Program-made: the position numbers and the translations under genes | Shown: positions 20,936-58,735 of the stretch, in pieces | Numbering within the stretch: the first letter of the stretch is position 1 | Layout of the letters: every line of letters begins with the position of its first letter | DNA from: Streptomyces sp. NBC_01353 | Lineage (GTDB): Bacteria; Actinomycetota; Actinomycetes; Streptomycetales; Streptomycetaceae | DNA: 64,000 bases | Reading direction: 5' to 3' | Assembly: GCF_036237275.1 (NCBI RefSeq) | Contig: NZ_CP108352.1 | Span: 3,844,001-3,908,000 of the forward strand | The notes under the pieces: generated by a model | The model's input: only the letters and a program-made list of their open reading frames with translations | Databases searched by the model: none | What the model was told of the DNA's origin: nothing

Positions 20936-22069
20936 TCAGTACGACTTGGGCAGCCCCAGGGTGTGGACCGACACGTAGTTGAGGATCATCTCCCGGCTGA
21001 CGGGGGCGATCCGGGCCACGCGGGACGCGGCGATCAGGCGGGCGAGGCCGAACTCGCGGGTGAGGCCGTTGCCGCCGAGGGTGTGGACGGCCTGATCGAC
21101 GGCCTTCACGCAGGCCTCGGCCGCCGCGTACTTCGCCATGTTGGCGGCCTCGCCCGCCCCGATGTCGTCGCCCGCGTCGTAGAGGTGCGCGGCCTTGGCC
21201 ATCATCAGGCGGGCCAGCTCCAGCTCGATGTGGGCCTGGGCCAGGGGATGGGCGATGGCCTGGTGGGCGCCGATCGGGGTCTTCCAGACCTGGCGCTCCT
21301 TCGCGTACTTCACGGCCTGCGCGAGGGCGTACCGCCCCATGCCGATCGCGAACGCGGCCGTCATGATCCGCTCCGGGTTCAGCCCCGCGAAGAGCTGGAG
21401 CAGGCCCGCGTCCTCGTCCCCGACGAGCGCGTCCGCCGGCAGGTGGACGTCGTCGATCGTCAGCTCGAACTGCTTCTCGTTGGCGTCCAGTTCCATCTCG
21501 ATGTGCCGCCGCTGGAAGCCGGGGGCGTCGCGCGGGACGATGAAGAGACAGGGCTTGAGCGTGCCCGTGCGGGCGTCCGACGTACGGCCCACGATCAGGG
21601 TCGCGTCGGCGATGTCGACGCCCGACACGAACACCTTCCGGCCGTTGAGGACCCAGCCCTCCTCCGTGCGGGTCGCGGTGGTCGTGATGCGGTGCGAGTT
21701 CGATCCCGCGTCGGGCTCGGTGATGCCGAACGCCATCGTGCGCGAGCCGTCCGCCAGACCCGGCAGCCAGGCCCGCTTCTGCTCCTCCGTACCGAAGCGG
21801 GCGATGACCGTGCCGCAGATCGCGGGCGAGACGACCATCATCAGGAGGGGCGCGCCGGCGGCCCCCGCCTCCTCCAGGACGATCGACAGCTCGGCCATGC
21901 CGCCGCCCCCGCCGCCGTACTCCTCCGGCAGGTTCACCCCGAGGTAGCCGAGCTTGCCCGCCTCGGCCCACAGGGTGGCCCGGTCGAAGCCGGGGCCGTG
22001 GCGGTGGCCGAGCGCGGAGACGGCGGCACGGAGCGCGGCGAGCTCTTCGCTTTCGATCATGGTGCTCAT
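20936..22069 (-). CDS. Acyl-CoA dehydrogenase
   Basis: A 377-residue flavoenzyme that introduces the alpha-beta double bond into an acyl-CoA. Visible landmarks: LGVNLPEEYGGGGGGMAEL in the N-terminal domain, the FAD/substrate segment MAFGITEPDAGSNSHRI, NGRKVFVSGVDIADA in the beta-domain, and the C-terminal VHTLGGNGLTREF that contacts FAD. The family's usual catalytic Glu region is replaced by LARLIAASRVARIAPVSREMI, so I cannot point to the base with certainty. ATG 22069 overlaps the stop of the biotin carboxylase gene. It is the last gene of the operon. Confidence 0.93.
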   Translation of the reverse strand: MSTMIESEELAALRAAVSALGHRHGPGFDRATLWAEAGKLGYLGVNLPEEYGGGGGGMAELSIVLEEAGAAGAPLLMMVVSPAICGTVIARFGTEEQKRAWLPGLADGSRTMAFGITEPDAGSNSHRITTTATRTEEGWVLNGRKVFVSGVDIADATLIVGRTSDARTGTLKPCLFIVPRDAPGFQRRHIEMELDANEKQFELTIDDVHLPADALVGDEDAGLLQLFAGLNPERIMTAAFAIGMGRYALAQAVKYAKERQVWKTPIGAHQAIAHPLAQAHIELELARLMMAKAAHLYDAGDDIGAGEAANMAKYAAAEACVKAVDQAVHTLGGNGLTREFGLARLIAASRVARIAPVSREMILNYVSVHTLGLPKSY

Positions 22070-23952
22070 ACGGTCTGGTCCTCCTGTGCATCGGTCTGTA
22101 CGACGGCGAGCAGGGCGCCGACCTCGACCTGGCGGCCGGGGACGGCGTGGAGCGCGGTGAGCGTGCCGGAGGCGGGGGCGATGACGCGGTGCTCCATCTT
22201 CATGGCCTCCAGCCAGAGGAGCGGCTGCCCGGCGGTGACCCGCGCGCCGGGCGCGAGGCCGTCGGCGACGCGGACGACGGTGCCGGGCATGGGGGCCAGC
22301 AGGGAGCCGGGCTCCCGCTGGTCGGTGGGGTCGGGGAAGCGGGGCCGTACGGTGAGCCGGTGCGGGCCGACGTGGACGGTGTCGCCGTGCCGGGCCACCT
22401 CGAAGTCCCGTACGACACCGTCGACTTCGAGCCGTACGCGGTCGGGGGCGACGCTCACGGGGCGGACACCCTCGGGGACGGTGACGGTGTACCCGGCGCC
22501 TCCGTCCCGGGTGGGCCGGTAGCGGACCTCGTGGTCGCCGTACACCTTGACCTGGTCCTGCGAGGCGAGGTTCCGCCACCCGCCCCCGAACCGGCCACGG
22601 TTCCCCTCGGCCTCCGCGAGCGCGGCGGCGACGGCCGCGTGCGCCTCGCCGGGCGGGGCCTGCGTGAGGGCGTCCAGGTTGCGCTCGTAGAAGCCGGTGT
22701 CGAGGCGCGATGTTTCGTGGAACTCGGGGTGCCGCAGGCTCGCGACGAGCAGGTCCCGGTTGGTCACGGGCCCATGGATCCGGGCCCGCTCCAGTGCGTG
22801 GACGAGCTTGCGGACGGCCTCGGCCCGGGTGGGCGCGTGGACGACGACCTTGGCGAGCATGGCGTCGTAGTGGACCCCGATGGCATCCCCGGAGACGTAG
22901 CCGGTGTCGACGCGGGAGCCCACAGGGAACTCAAGGGCGTGCAGTGTGCCCGTCTGCGGCGTCCAGCCTCCGGCCGGGTCCTCCGCGTACAGGCGTGCCT
23001 CGATCGCGTTGCCCCGGGGGGACGGAGGTTCCGGGGACAGGGCCCCGCCCTCCGCGACCGCGATCTGGAGGGCCACCAGGTCCACCCCGTGGACCTCCTC
23101 CGTCACCGGGTGCTCCACCTGGAGGCGGGTGTTCATCTCCAGGAAGTGCGCCCGGTCGTCCGCGACCAGGAACTCGACCGTGCCCGCGCCGACGTAGCCG
23201 ACCGCCTTCGCCGCCGACACCGAACGGTCGTACAGCTCAGCGACGAGCGACGGCGGCAGGCCCGGCGCGGGGGCCTCCTCGATCACCTTCTGGTGGCGGC
23301 GCTGGAGCGAGCAGTCGCGGGTGCCGAGCGCCCAGACCGTGCCGTGGCCGTCCGCGAGGACCTGGACCTCCACATGACGGCCGTTCTCCACGTACGGCTC
23401 GACGAACACCTCGCCGTCACCGAACGCGCTCGCCGCCTCCGCCGACGCGGCCGTCAACTCCCCCTCCAGGGCGCCGAGGTCGCGGACGATCCGCATACCG
23501 CGTCCGCCGCCCCCGGCGGCCGCCTTCACCAGGACCGGCAGGTCCGCCTCTGTGACGTCGGCGGCTACCAGCGAGGCGATCCCGAGGAGCTCCTTCGCCC
23601 GCGTTTTGGAGGCCATCGCCTCGATCGCGGACGGCGGGGGGCCGATCCACACCAGGCCCGCGTCCAGGACCTGCTGGGCGAACTCCGGGTTCTCCGACAG
23701 GAAGCCGTACCCCGGGTGCACCGCGTCCGCGCCCGCCGCGAGCGCCGCCTTCACGACGAGGTCGCCGCGCAGATACGTCTCCGCGGGAGTCGCCCCCGGC
23801 AGCCGTACCGCCGCGTCCGCCTCCCGTACGTGCAGGGCGGAGGCGTCCGCGTCCGAGTACACGGCGACCGTCCCGATGCCCAGCTCCCGGCACGTACGGA
23901 ACACCCGGCAGGCGATCTCGCCCCGGTTCGCGACGAGGACAGTGGAGATCAT
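22066..23952 (-). CDS. Acyl-CoA carboxylase alpha subunit (biotin carboxylase plus BCCP)
   Basis: A 628-residue two-domain subunit. Residues 1-450 are biotin carboxylase: VLVANRGEIACRVFRTC, the ATP-grasp glycine loop KAAAGGGGRGMRIV, EMNTRLQVEHPVTEEVHG and RLYAEDP. A linker domain follows, and residues about 555-620 are the biotin carrier with the biotinylated Lys in LEAMKMEHRV. It carboxylates its own biotin using ATP and bicarbonate for the carboxyltransferase encoded 11 bases upstream in the operon. With DUF1446 and an acyl-CoA dehydrogenase nearby, the substrate may be a branched or terpenoid acyl-CoA (methylcrotonyl- or geranyl-CoA-like) rather than acetyl-CoA; this is inference. Confidence 0.95.
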   Translation of the reverse strand: MISTVLVANRGEIACRVFRTCRELGIGTVAVYSDADASALHVREADAAVRLPGATPAETYLRGDLVVKAALAAGADAVHPGYGFLSENPEFAQQVLDAGLVWIGPPPSAIEAMASKTRAKELLGIASLVAADVTEADLPVLVKAAAGGGGRGMRIVRDLGALEGELTAASAEAASAFGDGEVFVEPYVENGRHVEVQVLADGHGTVWALGTRDCSLQRRHQKVIEEAPAPGLPPSLVAELYDRSVSAAKAVGYVGAGTVEFLVADDRAHFLEMNTRLQVEHPVTEEVHGVDLVALQIAVAEGGALSPEPPSPRGNAIEARLYAEDPAGGWTPQTGTLHALEFPVGSRVDTGYVSGDAIGVHYDAMLAKVVVHAPTRAEAVRKLVHALERARIHGPVTNRDLLVASLRHPEFHETSRLDTGFYERNLDALTQAPPGEAHAAVAAALAEAEGNRGRFGGGWRNLASQDQVKVYGDHEVRYRPTRDGGAGYTVTVPEGVRPVSVAPDRVRLEVDGVVRDFEVARHGDTVHVGPHRLTVRPRFPDPTDQREPGSLLAPMPGTVVRVADGLAPGARVTAGQPLLWLEAMKMEHRVIAPASGTLTALHAVPGRQVEVGALLAVVQTDAQEDQTV

Positions 23953-23963
23953 GGGATCAGGCC

Positions 23964-25562
23964 TCACATTCGGAAGACGCCGAAGCCGCCGCGCGCGCCC
24001 TCGACCGGTGCCGTGTGGATCGCGGACAGGCACAGCCCGAGGACCGTGCGCGTGTCGCGGGGGTCGATGACGCCGTCGTCGTACAGCCGCCCGGACAAGA
24101 ACATCGGCAGCGACTCCGACTCGATCTGCGCTTCGACCATCGCGCGCAGCCCGGCGTCCGCCTCGTCGTCGTACGGCTGCCCCTTCGCGGCGGCGCTCGC
24201 CCGGGCGACGATCGACAGGACGCCGGCGAGCTGCTGCGGGCCCATGACGGCCGACTTGGCGCTCGGCCACGCGAAGAGGAAGCGCGGGTCGTAGGCCCGG
24301 CCGCACATGCCGTAGTGCCCGGCGCCGTACGACGCGCCCATCAGCACGCTCAGATGCGGCACCCTGCTGTTCGACACCGCGTTGATCATCATCGCGCCGT
24401 GCTTGATGATGCCGCCCTGCTCGTACTCCTTGCCGACCATGTAGCCGGTGGTGTTGTGCAGGAAGACCAGCGGGATGTCGCGCTGGTTGGCGAGCTGGAT
24501 GAACTGCGCCGCCTTCTGCGACTCGGCGCTGAACAGCACGCCCTGCGCGTTGGCGAGGATGCCGACCGGATAGCCGTGCAGCTCCGCCCAGCCCGTCACC
24601 AGGCTCGGACCGTACAGCGGCTTGAACTCGTCGAAGTCCGAGCCGTCCACGACCCGGGCGATGACCTCACGCGGATCGAAGGGGGTCTTCAGGTCCCCCG
24701 GCACGATCCCGAGCAGCTCGTCCTCGTCGTACTTCGGGGGCTGTGCGACGGCCGGATCGGCGTGCGCCTTGCGGTGGTTGAGGCGGGCGACGATCCGCCG
24801 CGCCTGGCGCAGCGCGTCGGCCTCGTCCACGGCGTAGTGGTCGGCGAGACCGGAGGTGCGGGCGTGCATCTCCGCGCCGCCGAGCGACTCGTCGTCGCTC
24901 TCCTCCCCCGTCGCCATCTTCACCAGCGGCGGCCCGCCGAGGAAGACCTTGGACCGCTCCTTGATCATCACGGTGTGGTCGGACATGCCGGGGACGTACG
25001 CCCCGCCGGCCGTCGAGTTGCCGAAGACCACGGCGATGGTGGGGATGCCGGCGGCGGAGAGCCTGGTCAGGTCGCGGAAGAGCGCCCCGCCGGGGATGAA
25101 GATCTCCTTCTGGGACGGCAGATCGGCGCCGCCGGACTCGACGAGCGAGATCACAGGGAGCCGGTTGGCGTACGCGATCTCGTTGGCGCGCAGGGCCTTC
25201 TTCAGCGTCCACGGGTTGGAGGCGCCGCCGCGCACGGTCGGGTCGTTGGCGGTGATCAGGCACTCGACGCCCTCGACGACGCCGATGCCGGTGACGATCG
25301 ACGCCCCGACCGGGTAGTCGCTGCCCCAGGCCGCGAGCGGCGACAGCTCCAGGAACGGGGTGTCCGGGTCGACGAGCAGCTCGATGCGTTCGCGGGCGAG
25401 CATCTTGCCGCGCTTGCGATGACGCGCGATGTACTTCTCGCCGCCGCCCGCGAGCGCCTTGGCGTGCTCGGTGTCGAGGGCGGCCAGCTTGTCGAGCATG
25501 GCGGCGCGGTGGGCCGCGTAGTCGGGTCCGCCGGTGTCGAGGGCGGAGGCGAGGACGGTCAC
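23964..25562 (-). CDS. Acyl-CoA carboxylase beta subunit (carboxyltransferase)
   Basis: A 532-residue carboxyltransferase. Both crotonase-like halves are visible, with RHRKRGKMLARERIELLVDP at the start, NSTAGGAYVPGMSDHTVMI in the N-half acyl-CoA site, and FLHNTTGYMVGKEYEQGGIIKHGAMMI plus GASYGAGHYGMCGRAYDPRF in the C-half. The latter pattern is that of methylcrotonyl- and geranyl-CoA carboxylase beta subunits rather than of acetyl/propionyl AccD. The GTG start (25562) lies inside the first copy of a 24-bp tandem duplication that also carries the DUF1446 stop; GGAGGAA precedes it. Confidence 0.94.
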   Translation of the reverse strand: MTVLASALDTGGPDYAAHRAAMLDKLAALDTEHAKALAGGGEKYIARHRKRGKMLARERIELLVDPDTPFLELSPLAAWGSDYPVGASIVTGIGVVEGVECLITANDPTVRGGASNPWTLKKALRANEIAYANRLPVISLVESGGADLPSQKEIFIPGGALFRDLTRLSAAGIPTIAVVFGNSTAGGAYVPGMSDHTVMIKERSKVFLGGPPLVKMATGEESDDESLGGAEMHARTSGLADHYAVDEADALRQARRIVARLNHRKAHADPAVAQPPKYDEDELLGIVPGDLKTPFDPREVIARVVDGSDFDEFKPLYGPSLVTGWAELHGYPVGILANAQGVLFSAESQKAAQFIQLANQRDIPLVFLHNTTGYMVGKEYEQGGIIKHGAMMINAVSNSRVPHLSVLMGASYGAGHYGMCGRAYDPRFLFAWPSAKSAVMGPQQLAGVLSIVARASAAAKGQPYDDEADAGLRAMVEAQIESESLPMFLSGRLYDDGVIDPRDTRTVLGLCLSAIHTAPVEGARGGFGVFRM

Positions 25563-25601
25563 AGCAGTTCCTCCGGGACGGTCACAGGAGCTCTTCCGGT
25601 A
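25554..25601. repeat. 24-bp tandem duplication at a gene junction
   Basis: Two adjacent 24-bp copies (25554-25577 and 25578-25601; 20 of 24 identical) each contain, on the minus strand, a PEELL-stop segment with an overlapping GTGA. The right copy ends the DUF1446 gene and the left copy supplies the GTG start of the carboxyltransferase gene, so the ancestral GTGA stop-start overlap appears to have been duplicated. Confidence 0.75.
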
Positions 25602-27270
25602 CGTCGAGTTCGCGGGCGCGGAGCCACTCGCCGAGGGCCTTGGCCTGGGGGTCGAAGCGGGCCTGGGAGGCGACGCCCTCGCCGAGGAGGCCGGTGACGA
25701 CATAGTTCACCGCGCGCAGGTTCGGCAGGACGTGCCGTACGACGTCCAGCTCGGCGGTCTCCGGCAGGAGCCGCTTGAGCCGCTCGACCGTGAGGGTGTG
25801 GACGAGCCAGCGCCACGCGTCGTCGGTGCGGACCCAGACGCCGATGTTCGCGTCGCCTCCCTTGTCGCCGCTGCGGGCCCCGGCGACGCGCCCGAGCGGT
25901 GCTCGTCGCACCGGGCCCTGAGGGGGCGGCCCGGGCAGCGGGGGTGTGTCGACCGGCGCCAGTTCCCGGGTGCGGTCGGGTACGGGAAGGTGGACGCGGC
26001 TCCCGTCGGGGAGGACGGCCGTGTGCGGGACGTCGCCGGCCGGGATGTGCCGGGCCTCGAAGACGCCGTAGGGCGCGCCCTTGCCGGGCGGGGCGGTGAC
26101 GTGAAAGCCGGGGTAGCTCGCGAGGGCCAGTTCGATCGCGGCGCCGCTGAGGGCGCGGCCGACGGGCTCGGGGGCGGGGTCGCGGACGACGAGACGGAGC
26201 AGCGCGCTCGCGGTCTCCTCGGTCGCGGCGTCCGCGTGATCGGTGCGGACCAGCTCCCAACGGACGTCGGCGGGACGAGACTTGGAGCGCTCGAAGGCGT
26301 CCTCGATCTGCTCCCTGACGAGCTGGGCCTTGGCCTCGATGTCGAGCCCGGTGAGGACGAGGACGACCTCGTTGCGGTAGCCGCCGATCCTGGTGAACCC
26401 CGCCTTGAGGGTGGGCGGCGGCGCCTCGCCCCGTACGCCGTCGATCCGCACCCGGTCCGGCCCGTCCTGGGTGAGCCGGACGGTGTCGAGCCGGGCGGTC
26501 ACGTCGGGCCCCGCGTAGCGCGCGCCCGACGTCTCGTACAGGAGCTGCGCGGTGACGGTGCCGAGGTCGACGACGCCGCCGGTGCCGGGGTGCTTGGTGA
26601 TGACGGACGTACCGTCGGGGTGGATCTCGGCGAGCGGGAATCCGGGGCGGCGCAGCGCGCGCAGGTCGTGGTCGGTGAAGAAGGCGTAGTTGCCGCCGGT
26701 GGCCTGCGCGCCGCACTCCAGGACGTGCCCTGCGACGACCGCGCCCGCCAGCTTGTCGTACTCCTCCGCGCCCCAGCCGAAGCGCCACTGCGCCGGCCCG
26801 GTGACCAGGGCGGCGTCGGTGACGCGGCCGGTGACGACGACGTCGGCGCCGGCGGCGAGACAGGCGGCGATGCCGGCGCCGCCGAGGTAGGCGTTGGCGG
26901 TGAGGGCTCCGTCATCGGCGGGGAGTCGGTCGCCCTCGACGTACGCGACACGGGTGGGGATGCCGAGCCTTCGGCTCAGCTCCCCGAGCGCCTCGGCGAG
27001 ACCGGCGGGGTTGAGGCCGCCGGCGTTGGTGACGATGCGGACGCCGCGCTCGTGCGCGAGGCCGAGGCCCTCCTCCATCTGGCGCAGGAAGGTCTTGGCG
27101 TATCCGGCGTTCGGGTCCTTGAGGAGGTCCCGGCCGAGGATGAGCATGGTCAGTTCGGCGAGGTAGTCGCCGGTGAGGACGTCGAGTTCGCCCCCGGTGA
27201 GCATCTCGCGGACGGCGTCGAAGCGATCGCCGTAGAAGCCGGAGGCGTTGCCGATACGGAGGAGGTCCAC
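25582..27270 (-). CDS. DUF1446 / acyclic terpene utilization AtuA-family protein
   Basis: A 562-residue cytoplasmic protein of the AtuA/DUF1446 family: the N-terminus LLRIGNASGFYGDRFDA, then LTGDYLAELTMLILGR, the glycine-rich IVTNAGGLNPAGLAEAL, DVVVTGRVTDAALV and the C-terminal small domain with RSGDKGGDANIGVWVRTDDAW. AtuA is required for growth on acyclic terpenes in Pseudomonas, in the pathway that uses geranyl-CoA carboxylase; its exact reaction is unknown. Its neighbours here, a carboxylase and an acyl-CoA dehydrogenase, fit an Atu/Liu-like pathway. GTG 27270 overlaps the TAG stop of the TIGR03084 gene by one base. Confidence 0.92.
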   Translation of the reverse strand: MDLLRIGNASGFYGDRFDAVREMLTGGELDVLTGDYLAELTMLILGRDLLKDPNAGYAKTFLRQMEEGLGLAHERGVRIVTNAGGLNPAGLAEALGELSRRLGIPTRVAYVEGDRLPADDGALTANAYLGGAGIAACLAAGADVVVTGRVTDAALVTGPAQWRFGWGAEEYDKLAGAVVAGHVLECGAQATGGNYAFFTDHDLRALRRPGFPLAEIHPDGTSVITKHPGTGGVVDLGTVTAQLLYETSGARYAGPDVTARLDTVRLTQDGPDRVRIDGVRGEAPPPTLKAGFTRIGGYRNEVVLVLTGLDIEAKAQLVREQIEDAFERSKSRPADVRWELVRTDHADAATEETASALLRLVVRDPAPEPVGRALSGAAIELALASYPGFHVTAPPGKGAPYGVFEARHIPAGDVPHTAVLPDGSRVHLPVPDRTRELAPVDTPPLPGPPPQGPVRRAPLGRVAGARSGDKGGDANIGVWVRTDDAWRWLVHTLTVERLKRLLPETAELDVVRHVLPNLRAVNYVVTGLLGEGVASQARFDPQAKALGEWLRARELDVPEELL

Positions 27271-28058
27271 TAGGCCCCCTGCGGCGTACGGCCGGTGCCG
27301 GCCGGACCCGCGAAGGCCTGGGCGATGGTGAGCCAGTGCGCGGCGTCGGGGCCTTCGGCGTGGAGCGCGGTGTCGTCGGGGTGGACGCGCTGGGTGACGA
27401 GGAGGCAGAAGTCGAGCGCGGGCCCGGTGATCCTCTGGGCCGCGTCCTGGGGTCCGTACACCCACTCCTCGCCGTCGGGGGCGGTCAGTTCGACGCGGAA
27501 GGGCTCCGGGGGCGCGGTGATCCCCCGTACGAGATAGGCGTAGTCGCGGGCGCGGATGCCGATCCAGGCGACGTGGCGCAGCCGGGCGGTCGGCTCGCGT
27601 ACGACACCGAGGGCGTCGGCGATGTCCTGGCCGTGCGCCCAGGTCTCCATGAGCCGGGCGGTGCCCATGGAGATGGCGCTCATGGGCGGCCCGTACCAGG
27701 GGAAACGGGCGCCGGGCGGGGCCGCGCGCAGGGCGCTCTGCAGCCGCTCACGGCCGACGCGCCACCGTCCGAGCAGCTCGGCGGGCGGGAGCGCGGCGCC
27801 CTCTGCCGCCCCGTCGTCGACGAACGTGTCGGGCGCGGCGAGCGCCTTCTCCGCCTCGGCGGCGAAGGCCTCGGGGTCGGTGGCGGCGAGCAGGGCCGCC
27901 CGGTCGGTCCAGGCGAGATGGGCGATCTGGTGGGCGATCGTCCAGCCGGGGGCGGGCGTGGGCGCGGCCCACCCCTCGTCGATCAACTTCCGTACGAGAA
28001 GGTCGGCTTCCTCGCTCTCACTGCGCAGATCGTCGAGGACGACGGCAGGGTCGGACAC
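27270..28058 (-). CDS. TIGR03084-family protein (DinB/maleylpyruvate-isomerase-like)
   Basis: A 262-residue protein. The N-terminal half is a four-helix metal-binding DinB-like fold with the His pattern PAPGWTIAHQIAHLAWTD and METWAHGQDIADALG, which supply the metal-site His residues. The C-terminal 100 residues form a small alpha/beta domain (FRVELTAPDGEEWVYGP). This family accompanies acyl-CoA and DUF1446 genes in actinobacteria, but its reaction is not known. It is the first gene of the operon; GTG 28058 is preceded by GGGGAG. The operator-like site at 28118 lies 60 bases upstream. Confidence 0.88.
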   Translation of the reverse strand: MSDPAVVLDDLRSESEEADLLVRKLIDEGWAAPTPAPGWTIAHQIAHLAWTDRAALLAATDPEAFAAEAEKALAAPDTFVDDGAAEGAALPPAELLGRWRVGRERLQSALRAAPPGARFPWYGPPMSAISMGTARLMETWAHGQDIADALGVVREPTARLRHVAWIGIRARDYAYLVRGITAPPEPFRVELTAPDGEEWVYGPQDAAQRITGPALDFCLLVTQRVHPDDTALHAEGPDAAHWLTIAQAFAGPAGTGRTPQGA

Positions 28059-44260: not shown

Positions 44261-45520
44261 CTAGAGGAAGCGGCGGATGGGGACCACCGACTGTTCCGCC
44301 AGCCGCTGGAGCGGCGAACGCGCGGACCACACGGTGGCGTCGACACGCTCGCTGAGCGAGCGGTCCTGGTCGAAGTGGCCGTCCAGAGTGGCGGTCAGCT
44401 CCTCGTCCAGGACCGCGAGCACGACCTCCTCGTCGTGGTCGAGGGAGCGCCGGTTGAAGTTGGCCGAGCCGACGAGGGAGAGCGTGCCGTCCATGGTGAG
44501 CACCTTGGCGTGCATCATCGACGGCCTGTACTCCCAGATCCGTACCCCGGCGTCGAGCAGGCCCGCGTAGAGGCGCTGCCCGGCCAGTCGGCAGACGGGC
44601 TTGTCGGTGCGGCGGCCGGGGACGAGGATCTCCACCTCGACGCCGCGCCGGGCGGCGGCCTTGAGCAGCTCGGCGAAGTACGCGTCGGGGGCGAAGTAGG
44701 CCGTGGTCAGCCGAATCCTGGTCTCCGCCGATTCGAGGACCACCCGCAGCAGCGTGCGGACGTCCTGCCAGCCGACGCTCGCCGAGCCCCGGACCACCTG
44801 GACGACGGCCCGTCCCTCCGGCCGGTGCTCGACGAAACGGTCCCGGTCGTCGAAGAGGGTGTCGTGGCACTCGGCCCAGTTCTGGACGAACGCGGCCGCG
44901 ATGCCGTCGACGGCGGGCCCGCGCACCCGGAAGTGCGTCTCGCGCCACTCGGCCTCGTGTCGCGCGTCGCCGGACCACTCCTCGGCGATGCCCACCCCAC
45001 CGGTGAACGCGGTCGTCTCGTCGACGACGAGGACCTTGCGGTGACAGCGGTGGTTCTGCTTGAACGGCGACAGCCACAACGGCCTGCGGAACCAGGCCAC
45101 ATGGACCCCGGCCCGGGCCATCGCGTCCAGCAGGTCCTGTTCGATGAGGCGGCTGCCGAAGCCGTCGAGCAGCAGCCGTACCCGGACGCCGGCCCGGGCG
45201 CGGTCCGCGAGAGCGGCCGCGAACTCGCGGGCGATCGCGCCCCGCCAGTACACGAAGGTCATCATGTCGACGGTCCGGCGGGCCGAGCGGATGCTCGCCA
45301 GCATCGCCGAAAAGATCTCGTCGCCGTTGCGCAGCGGCAGCAGGCCGTTGAGTTCGGTGGCCGGGGTACCGATCAGCCGCTCCAGGCGACGCCGCATCCG
45401 CGCCGTGCGCTCGCCGACGGGCGGCGCGTCCCGGTGCGCACCGGACGCGGCGCCGGCTGCGCCACCGGCCGCGGCGCCGGTTCCGGGGCACACCGCAGGC
45501 AGGTCCTGGGCCGTCGACAT
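44261..45520 (-). CDS. Phospholipase D / cardiolipin-synthase-like protein
   Basis: A 419-residue protein with two intact HKD motifs, HRKVLVVDETTAFTGG (residues about 165-180) and HAKVLTMDGTLSLVGSANF (residues about 335-355), so the catalytic His-Lys-Asp pairs are complete. No N-terminal membrane helices are visible, unlike bona fide cardiolipin synthases, so it is either a soluble or peripheral enzyme acting on phospholipids. It lies 53 bases downstream of the phosphopantetheinyl transferase gene on the same strand and may be cotranscribed with the NRPS operon. ATG 45520 follows AGGAG. Confidence 0.93.
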   Translation of the reverse strand: MSTAQDLPAVCPGTGAAAGGAAGAASGAHRDAPPVGERTARMRRRLERLIGTPATELNGLLPLRNGDEIFSAMLASIRSARRTVDMMTFVYWRGAIAREFAAALADRARAGVRVRLLLDGFGSRLIEQDLLDAMARAGVHVAWFRRPLWLSPFKQNHRCHRKVLVVDETTAFTGGVGIAEEWSGDARHEAEWRETHFRVRGPAVDGIAAAFVQNWAECHDTLFDDRDRFVEHRPEGRAVVQVVRGSASVGWQDVRTLLRVVLESAETRIRLTTAYFAPDAYFAELLKAAARRGVEVEILVPGRRTDKPVCRLAGQRLYAGLLDAGVRIWEYRPSMMHAKVLTMDGTLSLVGSANFNRRSLDHDEEVVLAVLDEELTATLDGHFDQDRSLSERVDATVWSARSPLQRLAEQSVVPIRRFL

Positions 45521-45573
45521 GGGCTTCTCCTGGGCGAGACGGCGCCGCGGCCCCGGGTGGGGGCCGCGGCGGT

Positions 45574-46353
45574 TCAATGCGGGGGTCCGGGGCGGGGTTC
45601 CGCCGCCGACCCGAGGGACGAGGGATCCAGCCAGCGGATGCTGGGCGGGACGGTGCGCCGGGTGTGGAGCGCGGCGGCGGCCGCGTGGTCGGGCAGGTCG
45701 AGAAGGTTGACGATCCGCCACTCCGGCGGCGGTGCGCCCGCCGCGGGGTCCTCGCCCAGGTAGTCCAGGTCGAGGTCCCGTCCGAGACCGGTGCCGATGC
45801 CCTTCAGATAGGCCTCCTTGCGGACCCAGAGGCGGGCGAAGACCGAGCGGCTGTCCTCCGGCGACGCCGCCTCCACCTCGCGCGTCTCCGCGTGGTGCAG
45901 GGCGGCGCCGAGTTCGGCGACGACCTCCAGTTCGGGGAGCGCCTCCACGTCGACGCCGATCGGCACCGACGCCACCCCCACCAGCACCAGGTCGCCGCCG
46001 TGCGACAGCGAGAAGTGCAGCGGGGTACGGGTCCGCGCCACCGCCGGGCGGCCGTGCGGGCCGCCGCAGCAGGGGCAGGGCTCCGAGTGGAAGCGCACCG
46101 CTTCCGCGGGCACCCCCAGATAGGCGCCGAGGAGCCGCCGGAGCGTGAGGTGCGCCATCGTGTAGCGGTGCCGGTCCCGGTCCTTGACGAAGGAGGACGC
46201 CCGGCGTCGCTCGTGCTCGTCGAGGACCGTCAGGTCCAGCGCCGCCGGCGTGGACTCGGGGACGCGCAGGAGCCACAGATCCGCCGCGCCGTCCGCGGGC
46301 GCGGGCAGCGAGGTGGGCCAGTCCGCCGGGAGGACGTGCGCGAGGGCCGTCAT
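45574..46353 (-). CDS. 4'-phosphopantetheinyl transferase, Sfp type
   Basis: A 259-residue transferase that attaches phosphopantetheine from coenzyme A to carrier-protein serines. The two magnesium and substrate motifs are visible: GVDVEALPEL (residues about 132-141) and WVRKEAYLKGIGTGL (residues about 174-188). CCGGPHGRP is the P1-type cysteine segment found in this family. It would activate the peptidyl- and acyl-carrier domains of the NRPS proteins in this window. ATG 46353 is preceded by GGGGGG; a GTG at 46365 is an alternative. It lies 25 bases behind the TauD gene, in the NRPS operon. Confidence 0.93.
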   Translation of the reverse strand: MTALAHVLPADWPTSLPAPADGAADLWLLRVPESTPAALDLTVLDEHERRRASSFVKDRDRHRYTMAHLTLRRLLGAYLGVPAEAVRFHSEPCPCCGGPHGRPAVARTRTPLHFSLSHGGDLVLVGVASVPIGVDVEALPELEVVAELGAALHHAETREVEAASPEDSRSVFARLWVRKEAYLKGIGTGLGRDLDLDYLGEDPAAGAPPPEWRIVNLLDLPDHAAAAALHTRRTVPPSIRWLDPSSLGSAAEPRPGPPH

Positions 46354-53139: not shown

Positions 53140-55551
53140 TCACCAGGCGACTTGCGGCTGCAGGCTCCGGTGCTCGTAAGTCAACCCGGGGGCGGTCGCT
53201 TTGTAATGTCGGGGCTTCTCCTGATGCGCGGCCGGCCGGGCGGTCGCGTGGTGCGGGCCCTGCCCCTTGCGTTCGGAGCGGCCGACGACGGCGGCGACCT
53301 CGGCCCTCGACGACACGACGAGCTTGCGGAAGATCCGTCCGAGGTGGGTCTCCACCGTCTTGTGGCTCAGTTCCAGGGCGCGCGCGATCTGCTGGTTGGT
53401 GCGCCCGCCACTGACGAGTACGGCGATCTCCAGCTCCCGCTTGCTGAGCGCGGCGAGGCCCGGCTCGGCCTCGGCGGGCGTGAGGACCGGCGCCGGGCTC
53501 GGTGTCCGGGGCCCACGCAGGGCCGCGGCCACCTCGGACTTGAGTTCCAGGGCGAGGCCCAGCAGGTACGGGGAGTCGACGGCGGCGGCGTTCGTCTCGG
53601 CGCACGCGGCGTGCCGTACGGCTCCGGCCAGGTCGCCGGCTTCGAGCTGGAGGCGGGCCATGGCCATGGCCAGTTGCGGGACGGCACCGGTCAGGCGGCG
53701 AGCCTCGGCGATGCGCAGACTGCGGCCGAAGTGCAGGGCGGCCGCCTCGGCCCGGCCCAGCGCGGACTCGGTGGCGGCGAGCCAGTACAGGCCGTCGAGA
53801 TGGCGGACGGCGACACCGTCGGGAAGCGTGTCGAGGAGCGGGGCCGCCCGGTCGGCGTACTCCCGGGCCCGGTCGCCGGCCCCGGAGCGTACGGCGGCGG
53901 CGGCGAGCAGCGCGAGGAGACGGCCGCGTTCGGCCAGGGGCAGGTCTCCGAGCGGGGGTTCCGTGACGGCGCCGTCGGCGACGCCGGGTCCCTCGCCCGT
54001 CTCCAGGGCGTGGGCCAGGCGCTCGCCGAGGAGCCGGGCGTGGGCCCGCGTCTCGTGGGCGCCCGGGAGCCGGGAGGCCGCATCCAGTTCGGCGAGGGCC
54101 GCGCCGTGGTCGCCGAGCAACCGCCAGATGCGCGCGCGGCAGCGGTGCGCGGCGGCGGACGTGTCGGGGACGGGGGCTCCGGAGACGGGGCCTCCGAGGG
54201 CGGGCGCTCCGGGAACGGCGGAGGTGGTGAGCGTGGCGAGGCTCTCCCGGAGACGGCCGGTCAGGGCGAGCGCACGACCGAGCAGCAGCCGGGTGCGCGC
54301 GGTCCGCCCGGAGTCCGCGTCCAGCTCCATCGCGGTACGGGCCCATGCCGCGGCCTGGACGGGGTCCTGCCACAGCCGCTCGGCGGCCGCGGTGAGCAGG
54401 ACGCCCGCGCCGGCCGCGTCGCCCTCGACGGCGCTGTGCTCCAGGTGCCGGGCGAGCGGTACGGAGGCGCTGTCCCGCGGGGCGAGCAGAGCGGTGGCCC
54501 GTTCGTGGGCGCCCTGGAGCCAGCCGGACCCGGCGGACTGGTAGGCGGCGGCGCGCAGCAGCGGGTTGCGGAAGCGCAGCCCGCGCGCGAGGGCGGTGCC
54601 GTGGACCAGGTCCTCGCGCAGCAGTTCGTCCAGCGCGGCGCGCAGGGCGGCGCCGTCCAGCTGGGCGACCCGGCCGAGGGCGGCCACGTCGAAGGGTTCG
54701 CCGAGCACGGCGGCGGAGCGGGCCGCCAGCCAGCCCGTGGGCGTGAGACCGCGGAAGTCGCGCAGACAGTCGGTGAGGACCTCGATGGGGAGGGGGAAGG
54801 CGGTGCTGCCGCAGTGGTCGGGCACCGCGCGCAGGGCGGCGAAGGCCCGCAGGAGTCCGGGGTTGCCGGCGGCCTCCGCCAGCAGGGTCTCGCAGTGGAC
54901 CCTGCTGAGGTCGTCGGGCAGCAGCGAGAGCGCCTGCTCCTCGCTGAGGGGCGCGGTGGGTGTGCGCCTCAGGCGCCCGTGGGCGGCGGCCTCCGCGAGC
55001 AGGCTCCGGAGCATGCCGTCGCCCTGGCGGGGGCGATGGGCGATCGCGAGCACGATCCGCCCGACGGGCGGATGGCCGAGCAGATGGGAGAGGAGGTCGA
55101 GCGAGGCGCTGTCGGCCCGGTGGCCGTCGTCGAGCGTGATGAGGAGGGGCTGCTCGGCGGCCAGCGCCTCCAGCAGCGCGTGCAACGCGCGTAGAGCGTG
55201 ATAGCGATCGGACGGCGTGTCCGTGAGCGGGGGCGCCGCGGCGGCGAGCGCCGGGAAGACGCCGGCGAGCCGGGCGACGTGATGGCGGGCGGGCCCGGCC
55301 AGGGCGTCGGTGTCGAAGCGGACGAGGAGGTCGTCCAGGGCGTCGACGAAGATGCCGTACGGGACGGCGGAGAGGGTGGTCGTCGCGTGGCCGGAGGCGG
55401 TGCGCCAGCCGTGGGCGGCCGCGTCGCGGGTGAGCTGGTTCAGGAGGGAGGTCTTGCCACTCCATCGCTCGCCCGGTATCTCCACCACGGTGAGGCGGGG
55501 GGACGGTTCGTCCGATGCCTCGAAAAGGGATTCCGCGGTCACCGGATCCAT
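53140..55551 (-). CDS. LuxR regulator of the large ATP-binding (LAL) type
   Basis: An 803-residue regulator, somewhat shorter than the usual 900 or more residues. The P-loop reads GERWSGKTSLL (residues about 27-37), Walker B-like LLITLDDGHRAD is near residue 140, a TPR-like helical middle part follows, and LSKRELEIAVLVSGGRTNQQIARALELSHKTVETHLGRIFRKL is the C-terminal LuxR helix-turn-helix near residues 695-740. The last 40 residues are a basic, unstructured tail. It is preceded in the same direction by the small secreted-peptide gene (153 bases between) and lies just upstream of mbtH. It is probably the pathway activator of the lipopeptide cluster. Confidence 0.92.
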   Translation of the reverse strand: MDPVTAESLFEASDEPSPRLTVVEIPGERWSGKTSLLNQLTRDAAAHGWRTASGHATTTLSAVPYGIFVDALDDLLVRFDTDALAGPARHHVARLAGVFPALAAAAPPLTDTPSDRYHALRALHALLEALAAEQPLLITLDDGHRADSASLDLLSHLLGHPPVGRIVLAIAHRPRQGDGMLRSLLAEAAAHGRLRRTPTAPLSEEQALSLLPDDLSRVHCETLLAEAAGNPGLLRAFAALRAVPDHCGSTAFPLPIEVLTDCLRDFRGLTPTGWLAARSAAVLGEPFDVAALGRVAQLDGAALRAALDELLREDLVHGTALARGLRFRNPLLRAAAYQSAGSGWLQGAHERATALLAPRDSASVPLARHLEHSAVEGDAAGAGVLLTAAAERLWQDPVQAAAWARTAMELDADSGRTARTRLLLGRALALTGRLRESLATLTTSAVPGAPALGGPVSGAPVPDTSAAAHRCRARIWRLLGDHGAALAELDAASRLPGAHETRAHARLLGERLAHALETGEGPGVADGAVTEPPLGDLPLAERGRLLALLAAAAVRSGAGDRAREYADRAAPLLDTLPDGVAVRHLDGLYWLAATESALGRAEAAALHFGRSLRIAEARRLTGAVPQLAMAMARLQLEAGDLAGAVRHAACAETNAAAVDSPYLLGLALELKSEVAAALRGPRTPSPAPVLTPAEAEPGLAALSKRELEIAVLVSGGRTNQQIARALELSHKTVETHLGRIFRKLVVSSRAEVAAVVGRSERKGQGPHHATARPAAHQEKPRHYKATAPGLTYEHRSLQPQVAW

Positions 55552-55704: not shown

Positions 55705-55881
55705 CTACTGCCAGCCGAGGGTGTCCCGGGCGGCCGTCGTGGCGGTCGTGGTGGGGGCCTCGGAGGCCACGGCAGCGGTCGGGGCGGCGGGACCGTCCTG
55801 GGCCGCGGCGGAGAGCCCGGCGGAGGAGACGAGGACGGTCAGGACGGCGGCGGCGAGGCGGGCGGCGAAGGTCTTCGACAT
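55705..55881 (-). CDS. 58-residue secreted peptide precursor ending DTLGWQ
   Basis: An open frame with a good start: AAGGAG lies six bases before ATG 55881. The translation is MSKTFAARLAAAVLTVLVSS, then AGLSAAAQDGP, a Thr/Ala-rich segment and RDTLGWQ before TAG. Basic N-terminus, long hydrophobic core and an AAA-type cleavage region make a textbook signal peptide, leaving roughly 28 mature residues. GC at third positions supports coding. No enzyme or binding motif is present. The short polar C-terminus DTLGWQ is the sort of conserved end expected for a signalling or matured peptide. It is followed on the same strand by the LAL regulator and preceded by the 106-residue gene, which implies an operon. 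Confidence 0.7.
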   Translation of the reverse strand: MSKTFAARLAAAVLTVLVSSAGLSAAAQDGPAAPTAAVASEAPTTTATTAARDTLGWQ

Positions 55882-56065
55882 GAGGGCTCCTTGGGTGGAC
55901 GGGCGGTGGAAGTGGCCTGTTCCGGTCGGGGGCTCCGGAACGGCCCGGTGGGCTCGTTCCGGGCTCTTCCCGGCCGGCGATCACCATCCTGTCCGCCCCC
56001 CGGCGGTCTTGTCAGCGGTCGGAGGCTGCACGAAGCGGCCTTTGCATAATGCGTCCACCCCTCGG

Positions 56066-56386
56066 CTACTCACGGGCGGGCGGCGCGATCAGCCCCTCGT
56101 AGTACGGCGTCACCAGGGGTGCCTCGCAGCGCAGCAGACGGACGCCGTGGAGGGCGGGATCGAGGCTGATGGCCCGCTCGCAGACCTCCCGGGCGACGGA
56201 CTCGGCGGCGGCCAGCGAGGGCGCCGCCACGAAGAGGCCGAGGACGGGATGAGGCCGGGCATCGGCGTGCAGGGAACCGTGGCGCACACGTTCCTCGGGC
56301 CTTCCGAGCGCGCATACGCGAACGTCGGTGTCCTCGGGTATACCCATCCCCGGCGGCGGTTCGAGGTGGGCGTGAATCAGGTACAT
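56066..56386 (-). CDS. Small conserved-looking protein of the peptide-regulator island
   Basis: A 106-residue cytoplasmic protein beginning MYLIHAHLEPPPG and ending GLIAPPARE, with the segments PHPVLGLFVAAPSLAAAESVAREVC and VRLLRCEAPLVTPYYEG. It has a ferredoxin-like alternation of strands and helices, no membrane helix and no obvious catalytic residues. The start is uncertain: ATG 56386 has GGAGG directly against it, while ATG 56449 lies inside the 36-bp palindrome with no ribosome-binding site, and GTG 56422 lies between. The gene precedes the secreted peptide gene on the same strand and is divergent from the TrmB-LuxR regulator. I recall similar small proteins beside LuxR regulators in streptomycetes but cannot name a function. 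The 184 bases between it and the peptide gene hold nothing I can identify. Confidence 0.65.
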   Translation of the reverse strand: MYLIHAHLEPPPGMGIPEDTDVRVCALGRPEERVRHGSLHADARPHPVLGLFVAAPSLAAAESVAREVCERAISLDPALHGVRLLRCEAPLVTPYYEGLIAPPARE

Positions 56387-56430
56387 CCTCCGACTGTGCC
56401 GGGCGGTGGTCCCTCTCTCCACGAAAACAG

Positions 56431-56466
56431 CCGGGACGCTTTCTGCCATGGCAGAAAGCGTCCCGG
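56431..56466. promoter_or_regulatory. 36-bp perfect palindrome, candidate LuxR operator
   Basis: CCGGGACGCTTTCTGCCA followed without a spacer by its exact reverse complement, 18 bp per arm, centred on CCATGG at 56448/56449. It lies between the divergent 106-residue gene and the TrmB-LuxR gene. No gene ends nearby, so a terminator role is unlikely. Length and symmetry suit a dimeric or tetrameric regulator-binding site. Confidence 0.75.
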
Positions 56467-56676
56467 CCTCGGCACCTGACTAACCGATATCCGGCCAGCA
56501 CCGGCCGGAATTCGGTACGCGGACGCACGAGACACACCCTTGCGCACGCCATTCGAAATGCCCGACATGCACCATATGGCGGCCATGCTCCAACCACTCG
56601 AGGCGTTCACCGGACCGGAACGAGGGAGTGTTATCGTGACGCGAATTTCGAGCAGAACCACGCGGGGGGTTCCAGA

Positions 56677-57672
56677 ATGCTGACCACGTTCGGACTCGAT
56701 GAAATAGCGGAACGGGTGTACCGGACACTCCTGCTCCGCCCACAGGGGGAGATCGCGGATATCGCGTCGACCGTCGGACTGACCGCCGACGAGTTCCGCG
56801 CGAAGCTCGACCAGTTGAGCGCACTGGGATTGCTGCGGGCGCCGTCCGGCGATCCCTCGGCCCTGCAAGTCGTCAGCCCCGAGGTGAGCTTCGAGGCGCT
56901 GCTCGCCCGGCAGCAGGCGGAACTGGCCGCACAGCAGCAGCGGATCGCCGAGTCCAGGGCGTTCGCGCAGAAGATGATCGTCGAGTACGCCAACCGGCCG
57001 ATCGCCTCCCGGCCCGGTGAGCAACTCCTCGTCGGAATCGACGAGATACGCGCGGAGATAGCCCGGCTGACCAAGGGCATCACGACCGAGGTGATGTCCT
57101 TCGCCCCGGACGGCGCGCAGGACGCGGACACGCTGGAGGCGTCCAAGCCGCTGGACTCGGAGGTACTGGGCCGGGGCGTACGGATGCGCACGGTGTACCT
57201 GGACTCCATCCGCAACAACCCGCCCAGCGTGGCGTACGCGGACTGGCTCGCCGAGGCGGGCGGGCAGATCAGGACCGTCGCCTCCCTGCCCATCCGGATG
57301 ATCATCATCGACCGGTCGATCGCCATCATCCCGGTGGACGGCGAGGACGCCGGCGCGAGCGCCGTCGTGCTGCGCGGCCACGGCACACTGGCGGCGCTGT
57401 GCGCCCTGTTCGACCGGGTGTGGGAGTCGGGCGAACCCCTGGGCAAGGCCAAGACGCGCGACTCACGGGGGCTGACCGCCCAGGAGCGCGAGGCCCTGCG
57501 CCTGCTCAGCCAGGGGCTCACGGACGAGGCCATCGCCAAGCGGCTCGGCGTCTCGCCGCGCACCGCGCGCCGGATCGCCGCCGACGTCATGGAACTCCTC
57601 GGCGCCAAGAGCCGCTTCCAGGCGGGCCTCCTGGCGGCCCACCGCGGCTGGCTCCCCGGCGACACCGTCTGA
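56677..57672 (+). CDS. TrmB-LuxR hybrid regulator
   Basis: A 331-residue regulator with two DNA-binding parts. Residues 1-70 form a TrmB-type winged helix (FGLDEIAERVYRTLLLRPQG, then IADIASTVGLTADEFRAKLDQLSALGLL). Residues 75-110 form a Gln/Ala-rich helix that may dimerise. Residues 115-250 form a PLD-like sensor domain (VGIDEIRAEIARLTKGITTE, IIIDRSIAIIPVDGE). Residues 262-325 carry a LuxR helix-turn-helix (TAQEREALRLLSQGLTDEAIAKRLGVSPRTARRI). The hybrid form is typical of actinobacterial specialised-metabolism regulators. The start follows GGGGGG. It is divergent from the 106-residue gene, with the 36-bp palindrome between them, and convergent with the VioC-like gene. Confidence 0.92.
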   Translation: MLTTFGLDEIAERVYRTLLLRPQGEIADIASTVGLTADEFRAKLDQLSALGLLRAPSGDPSALQVVSPEVSFEALLARQQAELAAQQQRIAESRAFAQKMIVEYANRPIASRPGEQLLVGIDEIRAEIARLTKGITTEVMSFAPDGAQDADTLEASKPLDSEVLGRGVRMRTVYLDSIRNNPPSVAYADWLAEAGGQIRTVASLPIRMIIIDRSIAIIPVDGEDAGASAVVLRGHGTLAALCALFDRVWESGEPLGKAKTRDSRGLTAQEREALRLLSQGLTDEAIAKRLGVSPRTARRIAADVMELLGAKSRFQAGLLAAHRGWLPGDTV

Positions 57673-57721: not shown

Positions 57722-58735
57722 TCAGGCGAACACGCGGTCCTGGGCATGGGAGCGCAGGTCGCGGGACTTGCGGAGATCACGGGTCGAGACCGTCTTCTTG
57801 AGCCAGCGGTCCGTGCCGTCGTAGCGCGACGTGAAGGCGCGCCGGCCGTGCACCGCCAGATAGTTGTCCACGAAGAGCAGCGAGCCCGCGCCGACGACCA
57901 CGTCCCGCATCACCTTGTCCAGCGCGTCGACGAGCGCGTCGAGGGCGGCGCGCCCCTCCTCGTCGCCGGGGGTGTGGCGCATGAAGAACGGGTCGATGCG
58001 CAGGTACGGATCCTCCGGGGCGCCGAACAGCACGGCCACCGCCTCGGGTTCGTCCCGCATCTGCTGGAGCTTCGCCAGCGAGGGGGCGTCCGGGTCGACG
58101 GCCCGCAGCTGTCGCAGGTGCTCGTCGTCGGGGAGGATGAAGTACCGCTTCTGCTGGAGCACGGCCCGGTGCTCCTCGCTCAGCTCGATGTCCCGGACGG
58201 ACGCCAGGGTCGTCGGGACCTCGTCGACGTTGCGCACGCCGAACAGGCCCAGGTAGTCACAGCGGTACGGGTGGAAGCCGTCCTCCGTGTGCCACTCCAG
58301 GAGCACGTCGCTGCCGTGCCCGCTCTGCTCGCCCTCCTCGCCGGGGATCGGCAGGACGTTCTGTACGAGACGCCCCCGCTGGAGCGTCGACCAGCCGAAG
58401 ACCTCGCCGAGGCAGACGGTGAGGAGGGCGAGGTACGCCTCCTCGCGGCGGGTCGAGGTGCTGTCCGCGGCCGCCGTCCAGTGCAACGGAGTGGGTCCGA
58501 CGCGCCCGTCGTCCACCGGCAGTCCACGCACCATGCACGCGGCGGCGGGCTCCCGGGTGCGGAAGTCCTGGAGGAAGCCCCGCAGCCCGGCGGGCACGCC
58601 CGGCACATACCGCCACAGCTCGTCGCTGAAGGATGGCTCCGCAGGGTCGAGACCGGTCTCCAGGAGCCGGGCGACGACCGCTTCCAGCTGGTCGATCTCG
58701 GCGGTGGACAGGTCGTAGGTGAGGACGGACGACAT
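57722..58735 (-). CDS. Non-heme Fe(II)/2OG oxygenase, VioC/AsnO-like
   Basis: A 337-residue oxygenase of the clavaminate-synthase-like group that includes VioC and AsnO, which hydroxylate the beta-carbon of free arginine or asparagine. The HxE iron motif is in EWHTEDGFHPYRCDYLGLFG, the distal His in FVDNYLAVHGRRAF, and the 2-oxoglutarate Arg in DGTDRWLKK. Relatives supply hydroxylated amino acids for peptide antibiotics; here the natural partner is the FAAL-NRPS gene 63 bases upstream on the same strand. Beta-hydroxylation of the amino acid before it is loaded is the likely role. ATG 58735 gives the family-typical start MSSVLTYDLSTAEIDQLE. Confidence 0.92.
   Translation of the reverse strand: MSSVLTYDLSTAEIDQLEAVVARLLETGLDPAEPSFSDELWRYVPGVPAGLRGFLQDFRTREPAAACMVRGLPVDDGRVGPTPLHWTAAADSTSTRREEAYLALLTVCLGEVFGWSTLQRGRLVQNVLPIPGEEGEQSGHGSDVLLEWHTEDGFHPYRCDYLGLFGVRNVDEVPTTLASVRDIELSEEHRAVLQQKRYFILPDDEHLRQLRAVDPDAPSLAKLQQMRDEPEAVAVLFGAPEDPYLRIDPFFMRHTPGDEEGRAALDALVDALDKVMRDVVVGAGSLLFVDNYLAVHGRRAFTSRYDGTDRWLKKTVSTRDLRKSRDLRSHAQDRVFA

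Follow-up and report, generated by a model that had tools for sequence, protein, structure and literature searches.

Signals of the RRNPP family mature from a short C-terminal segment of a propeptide, and gamma-butyrolactone signalling of Streptomyces joins a diffusible signal to a cytoplasmic regulator in the control of natural products. As excerpted, the RRNPP criteria are a small exported propeptide encoded in the neighbourhood of a cytoplasmic regulator 250–500 amino acids long, and signals are typically enzyme-made small molecules in Actinomycetota and peptides in Bacillota (PMC10075063). Excerpts of two further papers give gamma-butyrolactones for Streptomyces (PMC13220807) and name cyclic or modified peptides besides butyrolactones in actinobacteria (PMC4748050), and others describe LCP-RopB of Firmicutes, in which a leaderless short peptide acts via a receptor (PMC10518010), and, in the salinomycin cluster, a TrmB regulator of unclear function (PMC6733881). 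In a literature search covering few subscription journals and no bioRxiv preprints, the string DTLGWQ, the C-terminus of the peptide described here, was absent; the matches to other tail strings of its family were unrelated by title and abstract; and the excerpts of the best matches for Streptomyces peptide signals or TrmB-LuxR regulators held no such system.

The locus described here was found in a window of 64,000 nucleotides (the whole stretch of DNA analysed) from Streptomyces sp. NBC_01353 (contig NZ_CP108352.1, positions 3,844,001 to 3,908,000). On the minus strand lie the genes of a 58-residue peptide precursor and a 106-residue protein, and divergent from them, on the plus strand, is the gene of a TrmB-LuxR-type regulator. 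As in the RRNPP systems (Rap, Rgg, NprR, PlcR and PrgX, all of Bacillota), a small, putatively exported propeptide is encoded near a regulator gene and the signal would be a short C-terminal segment, here a conserved tail that is presumably released by maturation. Unlike them, the proposed receptor is TrmB-LuxR-like without TPR matches, and the cassette belongs to Actinomycetota, frequently holds a third gene (that of the 106-residue protein) and in some precursors carries two to six copies of a Trp-centred tail. Because no TPR receptor was found and the phylum is another, we regard the cassette as RRNPP-like in logic, yet no member of RRNPP. From gamma-butyrolactone signalling it differs in that the proposed signal is a gene-encoded peptide and in the family of the regulator. 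With TrmB regulators (PF01978) it shares a weak N-terminal match below the Pfam cut-off, and it departs from them in its C-terminal LuxR HTH and its proposed peptide ligand; to our knowledge, the TrmB-LuxR family is not known to read peptides. Nine precursors of the present family that fail an export rule recall LCP-RopB as excerpted, from which the cassette differs in its receptor and in the signal-peptide-like N-terminus of most precursors.

A three-gene block inside an NRPS cluster

The precursor gene (55705–55881, minus strand) starts with an ATG preceded by AAGGAG, encodes MSKTF...RDTLGWQ and has homologues at three related loci (L038, L039 and L040). Its N-terminus of about 28 residues (55798–55881, minus strand), which the first-pass annotation had called a clear signal peptide, is signal-peptide-like by a hydropathy rule only. 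The tail DTLGWQ (55708–55725, minus strand) is the presumed core of the mature signal, as suggested by conservation in the family and by multi-copy precursors. In the gene of the 106-residue protein (56066–56386, minus strand), a longer frame of 127 residues is also open, with its start inside the palindrome described below. We rejected this start: the relatives begin MYL, and at least 90% of 52 relatives keep M1, Y2, L3 and H5 of the shorter form, so that the 106-residue form is favoured. His5, His36, His40 and Glu62 are kept at the same level. The window protein matched no Pfam or NCBIfam family, its 52 relatives matched none consistently (scattered weak matches were seen for single relatives), and the only PDB hint for the family was a weak CutA stretch (E 0.036).

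The regulator (56677–57672, plus strand), proposed as the intracellular receptor from its domains and its co-change with the tail, has a GerE/LuxR HTH above the Pfam cut-off (34.4 vs 23.5 bits). The TrmB half of its earlier designation holds less well, since the N-terminal PF01978 match falls below the cut-off (19.2 vs 25.6 bits) and allows only the term TrmB-like. No TPR family was matched at E up to 1, and the only region through which a profile of 39 regulators matched PDB chains (E up to 0.01) was the LuxR-type HTH. Next to the precursor gene is the LAL-type LuxR activator that had been noted at the locus (53140–55551, minus strand; AAA_16 and GerE), and NRPS modules flank the block on both sides, in agreement with its earlier placement within an NRPS cluster. 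Streptomyces sp. ISL-36 and Kitasatospora mediocidica share with the window the order NRPS, LAL, peptide, 106-residue protein, regulator, hydroxylase, NRPS. The hydroxylase (57722–58735, minus strand) scores above the curated cut-off for GntD, an L-enduracididine beta-hydroxylase, and is close to VioC, so the NRPS product may hold hydroxy-arginine or enduracididine. Elsewhere in the window, an ORF with a PLD-like domain lies within the NRPS region (44261–46276, minus strand), and biotin carboxylase and AtuA-type genes to the left of the NRPS genes (22066–27465, minus strand) are perhaps an acyclic-terpene or leucine utilisation set.

Between the divergent genes there is a perfect palindrome, which had been given as 36 bp and measures 38 bp (56430–56467; 19-nt arms, 100% complementary); its centre is about 62 bp ahead of the start codon of the 106-residue protein, and we propose it as an operator. 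Its core is unchanged in Streptomyces sp. ISL-36 and has one change in K. mediocidica while the flanking DNA has diverged, which argues for more than chance. Across 68 aligned loci, dyad symmetry peaked at –62 before the start of the 106-residue protein (z 6.2 vs other positions); given this near-fixed distance, a terminator was rejected. An operator matrix, fitted and counted on the same 68 loci, corresponds approximately to TGGmCGsTTcnGGCCATGGCCnnAAcCGTCCA (48/68 loci). Between the 106-residue gene and the peptide gene, a site exceeded 20 local shuffles in 37 of 65 loci. The one in the window (56026–56057) scored 13.1 against at most 5.8 in 20 local shuffles and stayed below one of five whole-window shuffle maxima; it is weaker than the palindrome site but conserved in both syntenic relatives (L038 and L040). 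In the rest of the window, outside the two cassette sites, nothing rose above the highest of the five shuffle maxima (15.3), and the next-best site, at 55516 inside the LAL gene, scored 10.7, above three of the five. The matrix did not hold at further loci, at which only 3 of 19 exceeded shuffles. The regulator may bind the candidate dyad sites.

Precursors with Trp-centred tails

With the 58-residue peptide as query, searches otherwise returned weak matches only (best 8.6e-4 in the genus), which we took as low complexity; synteny with the regulator was used instead. Three regulators from a search of genome contigs each had an export-type peptide ending in (L/M)GWQ within 20 kb, the one in K. 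indigofera lying 4 kb from its regulator. When the C-terminal dipeptides of export-type small ORFs were counted without a preset motif, WQ occurred in 21 of 33 regulator loci and the runner-up in 4. After 60 more regulator loci were added and relaxed scans were run, a tail peptide was present at 87 of 93 related loci, curated by eye with removal of spurious Trp-ended ORFs at L077, L091, L104, L111, L124 and L125; the automatic scan supplied 74 precursors and the relaxed scans 13. Homologous peptides do stand beside related regulators, and what the precursors conserve across the family is their C-terminus; both results favour the first-pass reading, which their absence would have refuted. As a control, GW(Q/D) ended 53 of 678 export-type small ORFs of the 93 loci and none of 158 elsewhere (196,724 bp in 42 stretches, made up of pieces of the window and of its genome together with loci that weak peptide matches had retrieved). 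On one annotated plasmid the tail peptide is entered as a 44-residue hypothetical protein.

The tail consensus is Dx(G)W(Q/D/G/E), with the last Trp penultimate in 77 of the 87 precursors and antepenultimate in 10. It is preceded by Gly in 61 and followed by Gln in 56, Asp in 15, Gly in 13, Glu in 2 and Ser in 1. A single tail unit at the extreme C-terminus is seen in 60 precursors; the other 27 carry two (16 precursors) or three to six (11 precursors) copies, for example GAGWD six times or NTTVWE four times. In 12 precursors inspected, the copies were mostly identical in DNA with few silent differences, and their duplication may therefore be recent.

The hydropathy rule for a signal peptide was passed by 78 of the 87 precursors; the nine that failed are L043, L108, L110, L112, L116, L121, L123, L124 and L128, at which wrong starts are possible. 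That these nine keep the tail, as in the DDGGWQ and DDSGWQ types, would suit a cytoplasmic ligand, with the tail acting as feedback inhibitor or activator of the regulator in a cell-autonomous circuit, export being incidental and no communication taking place. With a signal-peptide-like N-terminus in the 78 others, we consider such a circuit quite improbable and continue with an exported precursor.

Homologues of the 106-residue protein were found at 68 of the 93 loci by tblastn and at 81 by a profile built from 52 of the loci on which it was then counted, which makes this protein the commonest neighbour besides the regulator. Peptide and regulator share a neighbourhood in most of the 87 loci, usually with the 106-residue gene between them. 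At L039, L088, L090, L117 and L122, the 106-residue gene and the peptide gene lie together, away from the regulator; at eight GAGWD-type loci, L050 and L126, the peptide is distant from the 106-residue gene, and at the eight the regulator start is 2.7–3.8 kb from the peptide. Across the loci, no constant import or processing gene was found. In the DDLGWQ/EDHGWQ clade, peptidases are found a few kb from the regulator (S9 at L097 and L101, M13 at L100, M20 at L113) and are possible processing enzymes.

Tail type and regulator residues

To compare the history of tail and regulator, changes were counted by parsimony on a quick regulator tree of 92 of the 93 loci, 87 of them with tails (one row with fewer than 290 residues or no tail was left out). 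The residue after the Trp changes 10 times on this tree, compared with at least 26 in 100 shuffles, and the residue before it 11 times, compared with at least 23. Because a tail type that follows the tree could reflect shared descent, same-branch changes were counted for each regulator column. At the 87 loci, column 152 led all 282 columns for both tail positions (1.2e-6 before the Trp and 1.6e-5 after it), and column 148 ranked third for both. In a combined set of 127 loci, which used 40 of 43 further tails (L167, L198 and L199 were left out), column 152 was again first, now of 306 (p 3.8e-8 after and 1.0e-6 before the Trp), and column 148 was second after and seventh before the Trp. For the residue two before the Trp, the leading columns differed between runs (132 and 139 at 87 loci; 163, 70 and 30 at 127), and no reading site was supported. 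A strict independent-pairs test had only four supported pairs, which put significance out of reach.

The pattern at the 87 loci couples GWQ to Q148 and mostly N152, GWD to Q148 and mostly S152, (I/V)W(Q/D/E) to H148 and S or A152, and TWG to H148/D152. The window regulator has Gln148 and Thr152 (codons 148 to 152 at 57118–57132, plus strand), a minority state, at these proposed tail-reading positions. On the same rows, the best column of the 106-residue family reached 2.1e-2, 2.4e-3 and 2.4e-3 for the tail (89 columns), compared with 1.0e-5, 2.7e-4 and 1.4e-4 for the regulator (269 columns). Since column 152 tops the co-change and the 106-residue protein co-changes less, the central domain of the regulator is the best candidate for the tail reader, with position 152 firm and position 148 likely on these alignments.

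This comparison also bears on whether the peptide could be a small RiPP or antimicrobial, with the 106-residue protein as modifier of its Trp tail, the regulator merely in control and the pairing due to common descent. RiPP precursors can carry repeated cores, as the repeated tail units would be, and the 106-residue protein is the most frequent neighbour besides the regulator (81/93) and conserves His5, His36, His40 and Glu62. However, regulator column 152 shows stronger co-change with the tail than any column of that protein does, in all 87 precursors the Trp is penultimate or one place from there, and no known enzyme family matches the 106-residue protein consistently; we judge this origin of the tails unlikely and keep to a tail read by the regulator.

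The first-pass annotation had proposed that the peptide is sensed by one of the two regulators at the locus. By tblastn, a LAL homologue was detected in 3 of 152 loci, namely the window and its two syntenic relatives, in stretches of about 4–8 kb and three of 20 kb, beyond which a more distant LAL would be missed. On this count the LAL was set aside as peptide receptor; it may be a target or the cluster activator, and not a general partner. Because the LAL is so rare in these stretches and the tail co-changes with residues of the TrmB-LuxR regulator, this regulator looks to be the partner of the peptide.

The above pattern of tails and residues 148 and 152 was fixed in writing as a rule before 59 further regulator loci were fetched. 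A tail was present in 34 of these blind loci; N152 went with WQ in 9 of 9 and S152 with WD in 19 of 20, the exception being L248. When 42 non-blind loci were added (L164–L205, mostly inspected before the rule was fixed; 9 with a tail), N152 went with WQ in 13 of 13. N152/S152 against tail gave a two-by-two p of 1.7e-9 without correction for kinship, which both Fisher counts on the further loci ignore; at less than 70% identity, 8/8 and 7/7 remained. Trp-ended ORFs at L164, L169, L187, L228, L230, L247 and L249 were judged spurious by eye, as were second matches at L165, L178, L212, L217 and L226; if counted as tails, those of the blind loci L228, L230, L247 and L249 would be mismatches to the rule. 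Finer rules failed in part in the blind set (exact GWD 12/16; TWQ for Q148 with A152 0/4; SWQ for L148 with A152 0/2), and an unforeseen tail type, INWD, appeared in four loci with L148/S152. The pairing of tail and receptor at residue 152 is thus supported by held-out loci, as a regularity of sequence.

The held-out loci also weigh on the idea that the tail is never released, the exported protein acting outside the cell by binding wall or matrix through its Trp repeats while the regulator responds to some other cue. Such a role would fit the export-type N-termini of 78 of the 87 precursors, and repeated Trp units could allow multivalent binding. Against this, most precursors (60 of 87) carry just one unit, placed at the very C-terminus, and tail type tracks regulator residue 152 in loci outside the set in which the rule was discovered. 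We give this role very little credence and return to a released tail that the regulator reads.

Spread of the cassette and proposed mechanism

In the genus of the window, 335 of 392 genomes hold a relative of the regulator at E up to 1e-30; in the class, 92 of 246 genomes do so at 1e-25. Beyond the nearest loci the tail becomes less frequent, from 87/93 to 34/59 at the further loci and 9/42 at the others (27–55% identity, including own-genome paralogues and two plasmids); no tail peptide was seen at 6, 25 and 33 of them, respectively. On one plasmid (S. europaeiscabiei NZ_CP109155.1, L165; typed mobilizable), a YcaO gene is about 3.5 kb away from a cassette with the tail NTTGWQ; on the other (NZ_CP108815.1, L164), there are a regulator and a 106-residue homologue, with no tail peptide seen between the 106-residue gene and the next gene. 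The genome of the window has 12 regulator matches at E up to 1e-8. In the stretches around the other 11, one tail locus was found (L167, C1 at about 4757973), with a regulator of 32% identity and a precursor of three DTGWG units, and it is likely to be a second peptide channel in the same genome. Some genomes hold several cassettes with different tails, such as NTTVWE, GAGWD and DDLGWQ in G083, and 52 distinct tails occur across the 127 loci. Neighbours of the cassette, surveyed as one large ORF at each of 20 chosen loci, are mixed, with SARP regulators in 3, peptidases in 4 and a halogenase in 1.

Starting from the cassette, the tail family, its multiple copies, the dyad sites and the pairing of tail with regulator, each established at the level of sequence, we infer export, cutting, import and binding of the peptide, together with the sign of the regulation and its targets. 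The precursor would be exported via its predicted signal peptide and cut by proteases to free a C-terminal peptide of about 5–7 residues ending in x-Trp-x, here around DTLGWQ. Uptake of this peptide would follow, presumably through an oligopeptide importer of general use, and inside the cell it would bind the regulator's central domain, where residues 148 and 152 would be part of the reading site. With the peptide bound, the regulator would then act at the dyad operators ahead of the 106-residue gene and the peptide gene, closing an autoinduction loop, and may also act at further targets such as the surrounding NRPS cluster. The 106-residue protein could be an accessory of the loop, in a chaperone, processing or tuning role. 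We hold with good confidence that the three genes form a peptide-signalling cassette, in which a secreted and processed autoinducer is read in the cell by its TrmB-LuxR partner.

In Streptomyces there appears to be a large, unnamed family of exported small Trp-tag peptides, each with its own gene-switch protein as partner; in bacteria known above all for small-molecule signals, this resembles a language of peptides. With somewhat less assurance, we favour a language that spans the genus, with private Trp-tag channels of about five residues, dedicated TrmB-LuxR receptors, a code at residue 152 together with 148, autoinduction through dyad operators and control of natural-product clusters. If this is true, we know of no earlier broad family of linear, gene-encoded peptide pheromones in Actinomycetota. 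Should the tails be signals, the residue code would make channels predictable, and a synthetic peptide of about five residues, read from the genome, could activate silent natural-product clusters.
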